Below, in pieces: positions 3,066 to 19,592 of a stretch of DNA of 64,000 nt. The stretch is from the NCBI GenBank assembly GCA_006218035.1, contig VBWC01000016.1, forward strand, positions 1 to 64,000. Reading direction: 5' to 3'. The translations under genes and the position numbers were made by a program. The notes beneath the pieces were generated by a model. The model did no database searches. It worked only from the letters and a program-made list of their open reading frames with translations, and was not told the origin of the DNA. The DNA is from Gammaproteobacteria bacterium. GTDB taxonomy: Bacteria; Pseudomonadota; Gammaproteobacteria; VBWC01. The stretch's first letter is position 1. Every line of letters starts with the position of its first letter.

Positions 3066-5924
3066 ATGAAACCCGTCCGCCGCAATGTCGCCCATCTCAG
3101 CCAGGCCGAGCGCGATGCGTTCGTCAACGCGATCGTGCAACTCGATACATCGAAGGTATTCCCGGACGGCGTCTCGTACTGGGACAAGCAGGACCAGATC
3201 CACCAGGCTACGCACGTGCACGGCGGCGCGGCATTCCTGCCGTGGCACCGCGAGCTGCTGAACCGCTTCGAGGCCATGCTGCAGGAGGTCGACCCGAGTG
3301 TCGCGCTGCATTACTGGGACTGGACCGAGGACCCGCGTGTGGCGTCCAACGGTTCCGGCGGCACGGTTAATCTGTTCACCGCGGCGAACTTCGGCAGCTC
3401 CACCAGCCGCGCCGGCGTGCCGTTCGACAGCTTCGATAACGGCGGCAACTTCGCCGGCAGCCGCGACGACACCGGCAACCCGGCCGATCCGCCGCAGCAG
3501 ATCACGCGCAACCTCAACGCCGGCGCGCCGGGCGTCAATTCGGACAACGACATCATCACGTCGGCCGACGGATTGCCACAGGCACAGCAGTGGGCGGAGT
3601 TTCGCGACGTGCTGGAAAGCTCGCCCAACCACAACTCGGTGCATGGCTATTTCGGCGACGGCAGCACGATCAAGGCGTCGCACTCGGCGTTCGAGGACCC
3701 GTTCGTATTCTTATTGCATTCGAACATCGACCGGCTGTGGGCGATGTGGCAGATGCAGCCGGGTTACGAATGGCGGCTCGACCCGAGCCAGACCTACGGC
3801 GATGAGACCGGCGACGCCGAGATCATCGAATATCTCGAACCATGGTCCGGCACCGTGCATTTCGGCAGTCCGGTGCCGCCGTGGGACCCGGGCAACCCGG
3901 ACAACGAGATCGAACTGAAAAATTCGCGCCACCCCACCGTCGTGCAACCACCGTGCTATGACACGCTGCCGGTGTCGGTCGAGCTGCAATCGCCATCGTC
4001 CGGCGCGCCGCTGACCTTCAACGACATCCCCGAAGGCACCGAGACAGTGCGCGCAGCGGTGTTTGCGATACGCGCCTGCGAGGACATCACCTTCGACATC
4101 ATCGCCGGACCGGGCGCGGCCTTCGGCGCACCGCTGGGTACCGGCGTCACCGTGCCGTACAACGCCGGCGCGCTTGCCAACGGTTATGTGTGGGTGTCCT
4201 ACCAGGGCACGACGGCCGGTGCCGCCGCGGCCGGCAGCGTCACGATACGCTGCAACGAGACCGGCGAGGAGTGGATCATCCCGATCACCGCGAACACGAT
4301 TACCAAGCCCAAGGTCGCGTCGATGCTGGTGCTCGACAAGTCCGGCAGCATGGCCTGGAGCTCGGGTATCCCCGGCGAGACGCGGCTCCAGGTGCTGAAG
4401 TGGGCCGCGCCGCACTTTGTGCATGCGATGGGTAACGACGACGGCATCGGCATCGTCAGCTTCGACCATGACGCGTATCCGGTGATGCCGGTAACGCCGG
4501 CCGGCTCGTTGATGTTCGGCGCCGGCCGCGCCCAGGCATTGAACGCGATCAACCTGCATGACGAGGACGGCGGCGCGACGTCGATCGGCGACGGCCTCGA
4601 TCTTGCGCACGCGACGGTAGACCCGGTCGGCGGCTATGATCACAAGGCGCTGATCGTGTTTACCGACGGTCAGGAGAACACACCGCAGTACATCGCCGAC
4701 GTCGCGGCGATTCTCAACGAACGCGTGTTCGCGATTGGGCTGGGCCGCGCCGATCAGCTTGACGTGTCGACACTCGATACGCTGACCAGCGGTTCAGGCG
4801 GTTACATGGTCATGACCGGCGATCTCGACGTCAACGACCAATTCCGGCTCAGCAAGTATTTCCTGCAGATACTCGCCGGCGTCACCAACACGGCCATCGT
4901 CGTCGATCCGGAAAGCACAGTGCTGCCCGGGACCAAACATCGCATCCCGTTCACGCTGACCGGCGCGGACACCGAGACCGATATCATCCTACTGTCGCCC
5001 GACCCGTGGGCCCTCGACTTTTATCTGGAGACGCCGGACGGCAAGACCATCACACCCGCCGATGCGGCCATGCTGCCCGCCGTGACCTATGCGACCGCCG
5101 ACACGCTGCACATGTACCGCGCAACGCTGCCGATCCCGGTCGCCGGCGGCAAGGCGCACGGCGGCACCTGGCATGCGGTGATCTCGGTCGACGCCGGCAA
5201 CTTCAAGAAATACGTGTCGAAGCTGCGCGATAGCAACATCAGCCGCTGGTCGGCCAGCACCGCAATCCACGGCATTCCGTACAACCTCGGCGTCTACGCC
5301 AAATCGAACCTGCGATTGCGCGCGTCGGTTATCGCCAACAGCCATGAACCCGGTGCGACGGCGATGCTGCGCGCGGTGCTGACCGAATCCGATCTGCCGG
5401 TGGATCATCGCGCCGTCGTGCGAGTCGTGATACTGCGGCCGGACGGCACGACCGTTACCGTACCACTGACCGAGGGCGCGGCGGGCGAGTTCGAGCGGCC
5501 GGTCATGTTGTCACAGGCGGGCGTATACCAACTGCGTTACCTCGCCACCGGCACGACGCGCCGCGGCCAGCCGTTCACGCGCGAGGAGCTGCGCTCGATC
5601 GGCATTGCCCACGGCGCCGACACGCCGCGCCCGCGCAAGCCGGACGCGCGCGACAACGAGCTGTGCCGGCTACTGGCATGCCTGCTGGCCGACGAAGGCG
5701 CGCTGAAACTGATCGAACGCCTCGGCCTCAACCCGAAACGGCTGCTGGAATGCCTGAAGGAACTGTGCCGCAAGGTACAGCACGGCGACTCGACGTTCAC
5801 CGGCCACGCGGCGGCGGTCGCTCCGGCGACCGCGGCTAGCGCGTCACTGACGGAACTGCGCAAACTACTGGCGCAACCGGAAGTGCGCGCGATGCTCGGC
5901 AGGCTGTCACGCGTGGAGAAATAG
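3066..5924 (+). CDS. Tyrosinase-VWA fusion protein
   Basis: A 952-residue protein with a type-3 copper tyrosinase domain (about residues 5-230) followed by a von Willebrand factor A domain (about 417-600). Copper site A shows HVHG (H52) and FLPWHR (H61), with H46 or H50 as a candidate third ligand; site B shows HNSVH (H189, H193) and FLLHSNIDRLW (H218). The VWA domain has the metal-ion motif DKSGS near residue 424 and a later FTDG. The rest is beta-rich, ending in a Cys-containing helical tail. No signal peptide or membrane anchor is visible. A ribosome binding site AGGAG precedes the ATG. Tyrosinases oxidise phenols to quinones; the VWA part may bind a partner or substrate. A perfect terminator hairpin follows at 5939. 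Confidence 0.85.
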   Translation: MKPVRRNVAHLSQAERDAFVNAIVQLDTSKVFPDGVSYWDKQDQIHQATHVHGGAAFLPWHRELLNRFEAMLQEVDPSVALHYWDWTEDPRVASNGSGGTVNLFTAANFGSSTSRAGVPFDSFDNGGNFAGSRDDTGNPADPPQQITRNLNAGAPGVNSDNDIITSADGLPQAQQWAEFRDVLESSPNHNSVHGYFGDGSTIKASHSAFEDPFVFLLHSNIDRLWAMWQMQPGYEWRLDPSQTYGDETGDAEIIEYLEPWSGTVHFGSPVPPWDPGNPDNEIELKNSRHPTVVQPPCYDTLPVSVELQSPSSGAPLTFNDIPEGTETVRAAVFAIRACEDITFDIIAGPGAAFGAPLGTGVTVPYNAGALANGYVWVSYQGTTAGAAAAGSVTIRCNETGEEWIIPITANTITKPKVASMLVLDKSGSMAWSSGIPGETRLQVLKWAAPHFVHAMGNDDGIGIVSFDHDAYPVMPVTPAGSLMFGAGRAQALNAINLHDEDGGATSIGDGLDLAHATVDPVGGYDHKALIVFTDGQENTPQYIADVAAILNERVFAIGLGRADQLDVSTLDTLTSGSGGYMVMTGDLDVNDQFRLSKYFLQILAGVTNTAIVVDPESTVLPGTKHRIPFTLTGADTETDIILLSPDPWALDFYLETPDGKTITPADAAMLPAVTYATADTLHMYRATLPIPVAGGKAHGGTWHAVISVDAGNFKKYVSKLRDSNISRWSASTAIHGIPYNLGVYAKSNLRLRASVIANSHEPGATAMLRAVLTESDLPVDHRAVVRVVILRPDGTTVTVPLTEGAAGEFERPVMLSQAGVYQLRYLATGTTRRGQPFTREELRSIGIAHGADTPRPRKPDARDNELCRLLACLLADEGALKLIERLGLNPKRLLECLKELCRKVQHGDSTFTGHAAAVAPATAASASLTELRKLLAQPEVRAMLGRLSRVEK

Positions 5925-14337: not shown

Positions 14338-14422
14338 TCCGTGACGATAGCAGTCATTCGATTGGCGATCATGAACTACCGGTTGCGGCCAGTAGCAGTC
14401 ACTGATGCCTCAATCATCGTCG

Positions 14423-16000
14423 CTAATTCTCCTCGGCCTGTTTCGTTGCCGACCACGTCAGCCCCTCGGCGTACCTATAACGCAATTCGTCGTCCGGCAG
14501 CTTTTTCAATTCATCGATGTCGGGAGCATTTTTCATGAACTCCAGAAGTGTCTCTCGTGGTGTTTCTTTGTAGCCGTTTAAGAAAAACTCATACAGGTCT
14601 AGCGGGTCCCCGATATTGCCACCGACCGAAACGACCCGACCAAAGAATGTCTCTGGATGGGCTTTGTAAGCAGCCAATTCCGCATCCGTCAATTCCGCAG
14701 TCCAAATTGCGCCTTGTTCGGCTTCATCGATTACTGTGAGGTATGCTTTTTTCTCTGCCTCGGCAACAATTCCAGATTGCAGCGTGACGAACCTGCCCTC
14801 TGCCACTTCAATACGTTCACCGATATTGAATCGCCGTTCCGCTTCGCCAAATGCGAATTCCGGAATCTCACCGTCAAAGGTTACGGGGATCTTGTATGCG
14901 ACCATCGCCTTCTGCACATCGTACAGCGCCGCATATTTGACTCTTGCCTTGTGCGCATCAGTGTACGATGGAAACTGAGCGCCTTCGCCAAAGTCAGATA
15001 TTTTGAACCCAGTGACGAGACAGACCTGCGGCAGCCGGGTTTGTTCGAGAGCTAGGTGAAAAGGTTGATTGGTCACAAAAACATGGGCAGGGGGAGCCGC
15101 CGCTCCCATTATAGTCAGCTTTGCTTCTCTACCACGTATTGCGTCCAGCGCCTGCGTTCCGAATGCCTCGAAATCGGCATCCGCGCCTACATTCATGTCG
15201 ATGAAAATTACCCTTGGTAATTGACTCTCAATTCGAAGTGCGGCATAGAGTTGATTCCCCACATCAAAATGATTCTTTTTGGCTTGGCGTGTCTTTGCTT
15301 CGACCGAGTAGCTTTGACCATCGCGTGTTGCGATGAACTCCGGATGAGTTCGGCCTCCGTCCTGCTCATTTTCAATGCGAAGCTCGAAACCGGCGAGAAT
15401 GAACCACGCAGAGACAAATGTTTCGTAGTACGCAGCGTAGAAACTATCTGTCATTTTGAGGCGGCGAATCAAGTACTCTTGTAGCTCTGCGTTGTGCTGC
15501 AACAAGTATAGGTTGTACGCCAACCCATAATACGCAGTGACTAACCCGTTTAATGGCATATCCTGAATTTCGCCTGCCGGCTTCTTCATATTCTCTTTCT
15601 GCAGAGCGCATAACGCGTCATACCACTGCAAAATCTGGTGACGCTCTTCCAAGGGCTTCGCAATCTCAGCATTGCCCCAATGAGGGTCGAGTATGTTTCT
15701 GATGTAATCACCAAGGAAGTCGATGAATGTTTGATGTTTCTTCGACCAATGGATTCGGTTTCCAACAGCGGTCAAGCGATAGCCTTGAAACTCCGTCGAG
15801 ATAATTGGCTTACCCTTTCCTTGCTGGCTCCGCCGAATTGTTTCTTTCGCCTCGTGTGACTCCATCATTGCCGTGATTATTTCAGGTATGGGGCCGAGCG
15901 GTTTCGACGTCGCGCGACCGTGGCATCGTTTGTACTTTTGACCACTACCACAAGGACACGGTTCATTGCGACCGATTTTTCGCTTCCCACGTTTAGTCAT
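14423..16000 (-). CDS. SEC-C motif protein with PD-(D/E)XK-like core
   Basis: A 525-residue protein. Residues 15-27 form a SEC-C zinc motif ([13 protein letters not shown]). In the middle, HPEF (E221) followed by YSVEAKTRQ (E234, K236) and an upstream E193 in AYYETF resemble the E...ExK active site of PD-(D/E)XK nucleases. The C-terminal third is acidic and of unknown function. SEC-C motifs occur in SecA and in many mobile-element and defence-associated proteins. The gene diverges from a second ExK-motif gene with only a palindrome between the start codons (15998-16020), so the two are likely co-regulated. Codon use is AT-richer than flanking core genes. Nuclease activity is my inference, not a family assignment. 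Confidence 0.7.
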
Positions 16001-16020
16001 AGGTGTATGCTACACCCATG
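15998..16020. promoter_or_regulatory. 23-nt palindrome spanning both divergent start codons
   Basis: The sequence reads CAT, A, GGTGTA, TGC, TACACC, C, ATG. The inner GGTGTA-TGC-TACACC is a perfect inverted repeat, and the outer CAT and ATG are exactly the start codons of the leftward SEC-C gene and the rightward ExK gene. Its position between two genes without any leader suggests a shared operator or translational control site. Neither gene has a recognisable ribosome binding site. Confidence 0.55.
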
Positions 16021-16749
16021 ATAATTGATGTTGAAACGGAATTAGATCACTGCGTTGAGGTTATCGACGGCAGACTGGTTCGCGACTTGGTAGGGGCATC
16101 CCCAAACTTCCATAATGCGGACTACCTGTTTGACGAGTTTGAAGTTGTCGCGGAACTAAAGATCCTCTCGGTCGATCAGATGCACGAACCGAAAATTCGG
16201 GACAAGATGTCCGACATTTACCGCGAAGCATCTGCCCGAGGTGAGGCTGAGGTAGTTGTTTACGGGGAAGCGATGATCACTGCGGGCAATCTGTCAGCCA
16301 ACTACAGTAAGAAAATGGGGGAAGTCTACCGTCGTCCAGTTCAGAACATCGTCAAGAAAGCTAACAAGCAAATCCGACAAACCAAGCGGCACTTGAATAG
16401 GCACGGTCATAGTGGCTTGCTAATCCTCGTGAACGACAATCATCGAGCACTCGAACCGACTCATGTCAATTGGATATTGCAATCAACATTGCGAAATCGT
16501 AACTACTCTTCAATTAATTCGATTTTATATTGCACTACAAATATCACAGCTCGCCATCCGGAACTGGATACTGATTTTCTAGTTTGGATGGAGCAACACA
16601 GGTCAGGCTTGAAACCGTGCGCCGACGAATTACTGAAGAGAATACGTGAAGCGTGGTTTCGCCGAATGAGTGAGATAACTGGTGAAGCAATACCGAGCTA
16701 CCGACTCACGCCCGATGCTATGGCAAAACTCGGTCACGAATTTAAGTAA
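16018..16749 (+). CDS. Putative PD-(D/E)XK nuclease-like protein of unknown function
   Basis: A 243-residue protein I do not recognise. Near the N-terminus NADYLF (D35) and VVAELKIL (E46, K48) give the D-x10-ExK pattern of PD-(D/E)XK nucleases. A basic, Lys/Arg-rich stretch follows (around residues 90-130), then HGHSGLLILVND. The ATG at 16018 is preferred over the GTG at 16003 because it is the mirror image of the opposite gene's start in the shared palindrome. It is a candidate partner of the SEC-C protein. Whether this is a defence pair is inference only. Confidence 0.6.
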   Translation: MIIDVETELDHCVEVIDGRLVRDLVGASPNFHNADYLFDEFEVVAELKILSVDQMHEPKIRDKMSDIYREASARGEAEVVVYGEAMITAGNLSANYSKKMGEVYRRPVQNIVKKANKQIRQTKRHLNRHGHSGLLILVNDNHRALEPTHVNWILQSTLRNRNYSSINSILYCTTNITARHPELDTDFLVWMEQHRSGLKPCADELLKRIREAWFRRMSEITGEAIPSYRLTPDAMAKLGHEFK

Positions 16750-16948
16750 TCCGTGTTTCGATAATCGCCAACTGATCTTTTTCGAACATGTCTGATATGT
16801 CGCCGGACAGGATTGGTAGCTGATAGAGCCGAATCGCGAACGACCGCTGTGGGTCGGTTTCTGCCTCGGCCTTGAGTGGACCTTCATGCCGACCGGGAAT
16901 GTAGCGGCAGCGGGAAAGCCGGTCCGCGTTTATACTGTAAATAGTCAC
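16742..16948 (-). CDS. Small hypothetical protein coupled to the upstream gene
   Basis: A 68-residue frame that starts at a GTG overlapping the TGA of the preceding gene (GTGA), with a GAGAAG ribosome-binding-like stretch before it. It has no signal peptide or membrane span and no family I recognise. Its 3' end overlaps the end of the convergent ExK gene by eight bases. The overlap with its neighbour favours a real gene; the short length leaves doubt. Confidence 0.4.
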   Translation of the reverse strand: MTIYSINADRLSRCRYIPGRHEGPLKAEAETDPQRSFAIRLYQLPILSGDISDMFEKDQLAIIETRIT

Positions 16949-17499
16949 TTCTTCTCTAAGCAGGGAGCCCCAAGCTCATTGGCATACAGCTGCCGGCTCC
17001 AGCCTTGTTTATCTTTGAGGTCACTCTGCAGCTGAAAGAAAAGTGTGCTGCCGCCATCAAGATTCCACTCTGCACGGAACCTACTCCAGCCTTCCATTGC
17101 ATCATATTTATTCGGTTGACCGTAGCGTTGGTGCGCGGCCAGGAAGGTCTGGAACCATTTATTGAATTCTTCACCCGTTGTGAAGACGCCTTCCACCATC
17201 GCGTAAAGACGGTCTTGGCAAAAAAGATAGTCTCGCTGATCAGTACTAACCATTGAGGAATATGATAAACCCTGAGGACCTTTAGTGAATTGGACGCCTA
17301 CGTTGCTGAGTATTCTTTTAAGCTCTGATTCGGAGATTCCCGGCCTAATCTCCTCGGACCATTCTAGTGGTGGTAATTGAAACTCTGGCCACATCAGATC
17401 CAAATCCGCTCGTGCGCTATGGCTGATAGAACTCATGAAAGCTATTACAATCGCCAACATAAACGGATTTATTCGTGTCATGGATATTAGAGGCATCAT
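16945..17499 (-). CDS. Exported hypothetical protein
   Basis: About 184 residues, with an N-terminal signal peptide (hydrophobic FMLAIVIAFMSSIS, then SARAD). The mature part has ISESELKRILSNVG and two cysteines, and resembles small secreted proteins found between cassettes and islands, but I know no family. I start at the ATG at 17499, which has AAGGG upstream; another possible start is 17481. The frame continues upstream to 17676 through non-coding sequence. It probably acts in the periplasm. Confidence 0.6.
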   Translation of the reverse strand: MMPLISMTRINPFMLAIVIAFMSSISHSARADLDLMWPEFQLPPLEWSEEIRPGISESELKRILSNVGVQFTKGPQGLSYSSMVSTDQRDYLFCQDRLYAMVEGVFTTGEEFNKWFQTFLAAHQRYGQPNKYDAMEGWSRFRAEWNLDGGSTLFFQLQSDLKDKQGWSRQLYANELGAPCLEKK

Positions 17500-17615
17500 C
17501 AATGCCCTTGCTAACGTCCCGCAATATCCGCACTTTACAACGACCGACCGAAGCCGCAGCGAAGGAAGGGAGCACTCAAGCGTATGTGCTAAACGCATTG
17601 GCAGAAAACTCTTTT

Positions 17616-18167
17616 TCAGTCCTGCCCCACCCAAACAGGAATCGGCGCTCCTTCCAACTCCGAACGCTTGCGGCAACGTGCATCTCGAGCACGAATGCGT
17701 TGTTGGACGAGTTCTACCGCTTGCGCGTCGCTCATGATCTCGATACCGATTGCATTCTTTAATGCTTTTGCACTCCCCAAGATGCCCCTCGGCTGTGTTT
17801 TAGAGCCACCATCCGCTGTTACAAGAATTCGACAGTACTTTGCTGCATTAAATACGATTTCTACATCGTTGCGCTTGCTCCGGTTGTCTGCGCCCTCGGG
17901 AAACAGGATCTGCTCGATGGCCGCAATCATTTTCTGTTCTTGCGGCGTAGACGCGAGAGTTTCGGAGTAAATCGATTGGCGTGCCTTCGACGCCCGTTGT
18001 GCGTTGCTGCCGGCCATTGCCTCGCTTAGCGTGACCTCGGCCATATCTAACATGATGACGTCGTCGCGGGCCCACTTTTCTAGGAGATTCATATTCTCCA
18101 ATTTTTGCCTCGCATTGATCCGGTTGGTATCAATGTGAAACATCAACCCAATAAATCGCTGGTCCAT
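17616..18167 (-). CDS. PIN-like domain protein
   Basis: A 183-residue protein with a pattern like PIN-domain ribonucleases: D13 in FHIDTNRIN, acidic E44/E49 in MAEVTLSEAM, D101 in RNDVEIVFNAAKY and D119 in ILVTADGG. These positions match the four acidic residues that bind metal in PIN proteins. No small antitoxin gene directly upstream is visible (18168-18360 has none), so a classical VapBC pair is not shown. It could be a lone RNase-like protein of the islet. The assignment rests on pattern only. Confidence 0.55.
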   Translation of the reverse strand: MDQRFIGLMFHIDTNRINARQKLENMNLLEKWARDDVIMLDMAEVTLSEAMAGSNAQRASKARQSIYSETLASTPQEQKMIAAIEQILFPEGADNRSKRNDVEIVFNAAKYCRILVTADGGSKTQPRGILGSAKALKNAIGIEIMSDAQAVELVQQRIRARDARCRKRSELEGAPIPVWVGQD

Positions 18168-18360
18168 GTCTGCGGGTTTTCATTCTTTCGCCAGCTCCTA
18201 AGCGTGGTAACTGGGTGATAAGCTTCCCTCATCCGTAGACAGGTGACAATAGGGTGCAGGTTATGCCGCGCGAGTGAGTCACGATTTGGTCACGTCGCGT
18301 GGCACTTCACGTCCGCCAAATATGAGGCGTTCGGCTGATACCACAGATGCCTGATCTAAT

Positions 18361-18972
18361 TTAGTGTGACCACCATGACCATTCAATTCGTTCGACATTG
18401 TTCTTCAAGTCCAGTGATATATCGATAAGGTAGGGCTTGACGACAAATATGCCTGGCTTAGTTTCTTTCGCATTGTCTCTTTCATATATCAGATTGTGCT
18501 CGGTTTGATTGGTAGGTTTGCCGAGAATCATCAGAAAGTGTGATGCGGATTGGCCTATCCTAAGGTCGTTTTTTAGGCTGTAGATCGATTCCGAAATGGT
18601 GACGCGTCGAAGCCAAACATTACGATCGGTCACTGTTTTCCCTGCCGTAAGATCAGCCCCCAATTCCAATACTAAGCCGTCATAGTGCCACGTAAGTTCT
18701 TCGTATTTAAAAGGTCCAGTGATGGGATCAGGGTCTTTATAATCCAATACGCGACTCTCGGTGCTAATCGGATCGCCGAATCTCTTTTGAATTATCGAGA
18801 TAGAAAGGTTGTGCTGTCCATCGTTCACACCGGGCAAGGAATTCTCAAATATTTCGTAGCCTAATGCATCCACTGCTTCCTTGTTCAAGCCATCGGCTGC
18901 CGAGGCGGTATCCAAGATGGTTAGCGGCACAAGAAAAATAGAAAGGAAGGAAAGAAACAAACGTACGCTCAT
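18361..18972 (-). CDS. Exported hypothetical protein
   Basis: About 203 residues from the ATG at 18972, beginning with a clear signal peptide (RLFLSFLSIFLVPL, cleavage near TASAADG). The mature part is soluble, acidic and ends in WSWWSH. An in-frame ATG at 19008 is an alternative. No family is recognised; the pattern KRFGDPISTESRV and later ILGKPTNQTEHN suggests two related beta modules with an (R/L)GxP turn, as in small periplasmic SmpA/BamE-like folds, but this is weak. Confidence 0.55.
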   Translation of the reverse strand: MSVRLFLSFLSIFLVPLTILDTASAADGLNKEAVDALGYEIFENSLPGVNDGQHNLSISIIQKRFGDPISTESRVLDYKDPDPITGPFKYEELTWHYDGLVLELGADLTAGKTVTDRNVWLRRVTISESIYSLKNDLRIGQSASHFLMILGKPTNQTEHNLIYERDNAKETKPGIFVVKPYLIDISLDLKNNVERIEWSWWSH

Positions 18973-19592
18973 AAAAACGGCCCGAGGTATGCGAAGGTGT
19001 AGATACATAAATTCTTGCAGTGATAAATCTTTGTTAAAAATACCAGATACTTTGATAACATATTGCGACGGGCGTCGCAATCAAGCTGCTGCTCGAAGCT
19101 GGCCCCCACTCACCCGTTTGCCGTGCTTCGCCGCCGCCACACAGTTCGCCAACGATTTTGGCGAAATCGATAAACGCCGTGCCTAATCGGGTTCTACCCC
19201 AGGCCGTCGCTCACTTCCAGGTTCGCTGCTTGTTCCTTAAACTCCTTCGTGTACAACTACCTCGGTATCTTTCCCGTTTCTTGCCTCTTCGTTGAACCCA
19301 GTTCACTTCAACGATGGCGTCCACTTTTTCGAGCCTACCTCATAATATATCAGGTCGGAAATCATCGACAGCCAGAACGGCCACTTCGGGTCGAAAGTAC
19401 CAATTGGCCTTCCATGTGTGAACGGCTGCTCCCGCCAATAGCCGCCAGTGGCGAATCCAGTTTACAGATCGCCATTCGCGCAATACGCCTGGCCCACCGT
19501 CCGTAGTTCCTCGTCGGGGTAATCCGGAACGTCACAATATATATAGTCACGGGACGATACGGATCGCTTGATCATGTTTCGAGAAGAGCAGG
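18973..19592. other. AT-richer gap with no supported gene
   Basis: I find no convincing coding region, RNA gene or repeat in these 620 bases. Short frames exist on both strands but none has family-like composition. It marks the right end of the AT-rich islet that began after napC. Confidence 0.5.

Follow-up and report, generated by a model that had tools for sequence, protein, structure and literature searches.

Two genes diverge beside the nap genes in the window, i.e. the whole stretch of 64,000 nucleotides that was analysed. Their ATG codons are separated by 17 nt (16001-16017), as an earlier preliminary description of this DNA had stated and as both the open reading frames and the sequence bear out. 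The features of the locus are the following.

14338-19590: variable AT-richer cargo slot bounded on one side by the nap genes and on the right by a conserved flank, delimited by GC content and by comparison with genome G001
14423-16000, minus strand: gene 1, 525 aa, ATG start (from the ORF listing), with an N-terminal SEC-C motif (aa 11-29), a central PD-(D/E)XK-like core and a C-terminal beta/helical part
16018-16749, plus strand: gene 2, 243 aa, ATG start (from the ORF listing)
16003-16017, plus strand: GTG codon in frame with gene 2, an alternative start that would add MYATP and that lies inside the inverted repeat (from the ORF listing)
16002-16016: perfect 6-3-6 inverted repeat GGTGTA-TGC-TACACC, exact and found once in the genome
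16006-16012: candidate shared -10 element TATGCTA, read as TATGCT on the plus strand (16006-16011) and as TAGCAT on the minus strand (16012-16007)

The start of gene 1 agrees with the alignment to a 62%-identical homologue from locus L069 (MKKHGKNKIGRND). The start of gene 2 is uncertain because the in-frame GTG at 16003 sits in the inverted repeat.

The AT-richer islet after nap that was part of the preliminary description is real: from about 14.3 to 19.1 kb the GC content is 0.475-0.53, compared with 0.60-0.65 in most of the flanking sequence. Both flanks of the slot are kept in the same-genus genome G001 (84% and 77% identity), where the equivalent position is occupied by about 5 kb of unrelated DNA with neither gene 1 nor gene 2. 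The cargo of G001 (L067, G001:C9, 4235-8526) comprises a CARDB protein, an M74-like peptidase and a tyrosine recombinase. Further along the slot of the window, a 183-aa protein encoded on the minus strand (17616-18167) has a PIN-domain-like reading (IDTNRI..., LVTADGG) and could be a lone toxin-type RNase; no Pfam match reached the cut-off for it. Two simple pattern scans called no attC site in the slot, and the same patterns missed the attC-like site of locus L069 described below. The simplest reading of the distribution of the two genes and of the comparison with G001 is that the slot was filled independently with cargo.

The SEC-C protein encoded by gene 1 and its relatives

The patterns HPEF..VEAK and NADYLF..AELK and the SEC-C motif, all reported earlier, were found in the two proteins. 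In gene 1 the SEC-C zinc motif (CxC...CH) scores 39.6 bits against a Pfam cut-off of 20.4, and Pfam recognises nothing else in the protein. Matches in PADLOC 2.0 and NCBIfam are restricted to SEC-C (about 25 residues in PADLOC), and a PDB sequence search returned only SEC-C matches of the SecA/YchJ type. The PADLOC families PDC-S12 and CBASS E2 share with gene 1 only SEC-C, the rest being unmatched; the motif lies near the C-terminal end of their models, whereas in gene 1 it is N-terminal and followed by the PD-(D/E)XK-like core.

Residues E193, E221, E234 and K236 are invariant among nine aligned homologues (29-68% identity) as well as in a set of five. The AlphaFold2 model, computed from five input sequences, has an overall pLDDT of 62, which is moderate, with core blocks mostly at 75-86 (one at 52) and values of 56-79 past residue 240. 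It predicts an αβββαβ core (helix 184-202, strands 206-209, 221-226 and 229-237, helix 247-255, strand 263-268) in which E193 is placed on the first helix, E221 on strand 221-226 and E234 and K236 on strand 229-237. Foldseek searches of this model gave no PDB match at E<=0.001, the best being an unrelated large enzyme at E 5.7e-3, and nothing significant among viral models. The small-protein fold match of highest probability is XisH (2okf, 2inb; probability 0.84-0.85), but its E-values of 0.03-0.06 are not significant and XisH, with about 130 aa and no SEC-C, differs from the 525-aa product of gene 1. The XisH family is restriction-endonuclease-like. On the invariant residues and the predicted core, the assignment of gene 1 as a PD-(D/E)XK nuclease, with predicted activity, is well supported; it falls short of proof because Foldseek returned no significant PDB match.

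Homologues of gene 1 were gathered from genomes, plasmids and viral contigs. The profile search found the family in 4 of 369 genomes of the class, the window's own included, which makes it rare. It was seen at 12 distinct places, one of them the slot of the window, and almost all of these are mobile or linked to defence. In an alphaproteobacterial island (L001) the homologue is accompanied by TIR and PDC-S21 genes, by an integrase-like ORF and by a tRNA, and on a Caballeronia plasmid (L034) by an integrase and a type I restriction-modification system. Four Rhizobiales plasmids (L035-L038) also carry it, one of them beside a complete Gabija pair and others close to AbiEi, VapBC/integrase or a DEAD/DEAH helicase. 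SIR2-like genes are listed along with TIR among the neighbourhoods of the family. Elsewhere, the homologue lies beside RhuM-Fic and AbiE (L057), in an integrase-like neighbourhood (L068), on a phage-tail contig (L072) or in what we take from its genes to be a Mu-like prophage (L056), which was also found as a viral contig (L071). The last setting is a unidirectional, cassette-like array (L069/L070), which contains a GmrSD_N gene along with an attC-like hairpin (fold z -4.95).

Three of these loci hold further details. In the Caballeronia homologue SEC-C is left out by the annotated start and is regained from an upstream in-frame start at 2730 (L034, 2730-2829). On a Rhizobium plasmid a complete Gabija pair (GajA and GajB) lies 1.3 kb upstream of the homologue (L038, 134-3696). 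In L069 the attC-like hairpin (5700-5785) stands just upstream of the homologue, and the array, filed as a viral contig, may be an integron instead of a virus. Overall, the neighbourhoods of the gene-1 family may be enriched in defence genes.

The small protein encoded by gene 2

The product of gene 2 belongs to no Pfam or NCBIfam family, its best match in PADLOC 2.0 has an E-value of 0.027, and comparison with the PDB by sequence gave chance matches only. Residues 32-176 align with positions 40-184 of the profile phrog_20483, that of P2-EC67 ORF226 (E 1.2e-11), and a homologue in the Acinetobacter phage AbIPP1 matches across 98% of the length (E 2e-19). Further relatives occur in genomes G384 and G415 and on a Catenovulum plasmid, and the genome of the window itself has another member besides gene 2. 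This second, divergent member (L053, G000:C62:8730-9503) lies on a 23-kb contig whose other genes we take, from their sequence, to be ParB-like, VirB4/TrbE-like and an IS3-transposase-like piece. The family is present in 3 of 399 genomes of the phylum, the window's own included; tblastn against plasmids gave no match at 1e-5, and searches of viral sequences that started from the AbIPP1 and G384 proteins gave no additional relatives.

P2-EC67 ORF226 and gene 2 have in common D35, E46-x-K48 and an A-x-K-Q helix, with 21-22% identity and different N- and C-termini. ORF226 is located in the P2 tin/old locus and gene 2 in a chromosomal slot. In P2 the copies are found between gpA and gpQ (AM157369 is an isolated P2-EC67 segment), at the tin/old hotspot, which has been described as a reservoir of anti-phage systems (PMC9122126). 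Other contexts of the family are the Acinetobacter phage, a conjugative-type contig and an island with a recombinase. The defence flavour that had been proposed for the pair is supported by the contexts of both families.

D35, E46 and K48 account for three of only seven invariant columns in an alignment of eight divergent members. A structure model computed from a four-sequence alignment (the window and P2 sequences) reached a pLDDT of 39.1 and gave no usable fold. Because structure prediction failed, the plausible PD-(D/E)XK label of gene 2 is one of motif. Of the two PD-(D/E)XK folds suggested in the preliminary description, that of gene 1 thus holds through its invariant residues and predicted core, while for gene 2 the motif is what stands.

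The inverted repeat between the start codons

The inverted repeat had been described as extending to the start codons themselves. Its inner 15 nt are exact and their centre (16009) falls halfway between the ATG adenines at 16000 and 16018. The CAT and ATG ends are complementary in any divergent pair of ATG codons, so that only the inner 15 nt constitute evidence. In the 3.0-Mb genome the 15-mer pattern has a single occurrence. The core GTGTA-N3-TACAC, whose conservation was the check named at the outset, is absent from every fetched homologue locus, where the upstream regions are unrelated. The significance of the repeat is suggestive but not overwhelming.

The distance from one ATG adenine to the other is 18 bp and, if each is taken as +1, a T at -7, an A at -11, a T at -12 and a T at -18 are found on both strands. 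In bacterial bidirectional promoters an 18-bp spacing between starts is the commonest, and -7T and -11A pair reciprocally (PMC10268837, PMC12825309). The candidate starts match the bidirectional promoters of Warman, Grainger and co-workers in the 18-bp spacing, the reciprocal -7T/-11A and the -18T, the last of which follows trivially since it is fixed by the start codons. Unlike in the published promoters, they would fall on start codons, and the sites were here read from the sequence. The TA/TA identities would arise with a probability of about 0.004 from base composition and of about 1 in 16 given the palindrome. Candidate -35 matches are weak (4/6 on each side, spacer 16), and a consensus promoter scanner called none between the genes at its threshold. 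The pattern CAT-N5-TA-N3-TA-N5-ATG has one occurrence in the genome, between gene 1 and gene 2; a reversed control pattern likewise has one, so that the geometry by itself is not rare across the genome. Starts on both ATG adenines would give leaderless mRNAs. The palindrome fits a shared two-way promoter no less well than it fits a regulator site, and such a promoter would account for its inner part with no regulator involved; taken as a step on its own, this promoter is a tentative proposal that falls somewhat short of an even chance.

Interpretation of the locus

When all fetched loci were scanned with the two family profiles, the window was the only locus that both matched. In the genomes and records reachable here, gene 2 was not found where gene 1 occurs, nor the reverse; these mutual-absence searches contain no known positive and are weak for that, but the same profiles found their own families in like searches. 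Comparison of the two profiles indicates no relation (probability 0.3%), and no paper on either family was found in the literature. Since elsewhere the two occur apart from each other, in phages, on plasmids and in defence islands, gene 1 and gene 2 are probably not one system, and most likely they are unrelated accessory candidate nucleases standing side by side.

The preferred explanation, to which a probability of about 0.5 is given, is that the slot holds two independent candidate anti-phage cargo nucleases, the promoter being the less certain part. Two unrelated, separately mobile accessory genes would have come to lie head to head in the variable slot beside nap. The product of gene 1 would be a PD-(D/E)XK nuclease tethered by its SEC-C motif, and that of gene 2 a small nuclease belonging to the P2 ORF226 family. 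As for the palindrome, it would make up the symmetric core of a two-way promoter with overlapping -10 elements and starts on the ATG adenines, from which two leaderless mRNAs would arise and the two genes would perhaps be co-expressed. Stated in full, as two unnamed single-gene anti-phage nuclease families expressed without leaders from one symmetric promoter whose -10 is the palindrome, the proposal is rather unlikely.

Cargo genes juxtaposed by chance, each with its promoter inside the neighbouring gene and with a coincidental palindrome between them, are a somewhat unlikely explanation. It agrees with the independent distribution of the two genes and with the presence of about ten palindromic places of similar size (13 overlapping matches) in the 5.25-kb islet, most of them in coding sequence. 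On the other hand, arms of at least 6 nt around a loop of at most 6 nt arise in a random 17-nt gap in 0.45% of trials (P ~0.0045), and coincidence would also have to produce the shared axis of palindrome and start codons together with the 18-bp bidirectional-promoter geometry. The palindrome could instead be the operator of an unlinked regulator, encoded by the host or by a mobile element, that would repress both genes by covering a shared promoter. The sequence GGTGTANNNTACACC is shaped like the site of a dimeric regulator, and its outer GGTG/CACC arms are more than a shared -10 requires; its single copy in the genome is unlike a regulon and no regulator gene was recognised within the slot. 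This reading is quite improbable. The self-regulating two-gene nuclease system of the preliminary description, with the palindrome as shared operator, is very improbable: the head-to-head arrangement over 17 nt, the symmetric site on one dyad axis with the starts and the D/E..ExK motifs of both proteins would suit it, but among the loci and genomes examined no second locus has both genes, the palindrome was not found at homologue loci, the two profiles are unrelated and neither protein matches an HTH or other DNA-binding regulator family. Non-recurrence of the pair and non-conservation of the palindrome are both outcomes that the preliminary description had named as refuting it.

The reading as two independent cargo nucleases under a shared promoter suggests some caution in taking operators off sequence, since promoter symmetry can account for an inverted repeat flanked by start codons. 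Of the two families, that of gene 1 is the more interesting lead. Apart from SEC-C it is covered by no family in Pfam, NCBIfam or PADLOC, yet it recurs beside Gabija, AbiE and type I restriction-modification systems; being unnamed and recurrent in such company and in prophages, it is a good candidate for plating tests. If the shared promoter and the anti-phage role are both real, the locus would be a case of acquired defence cargo switched on jointly without a dedicated regulator.
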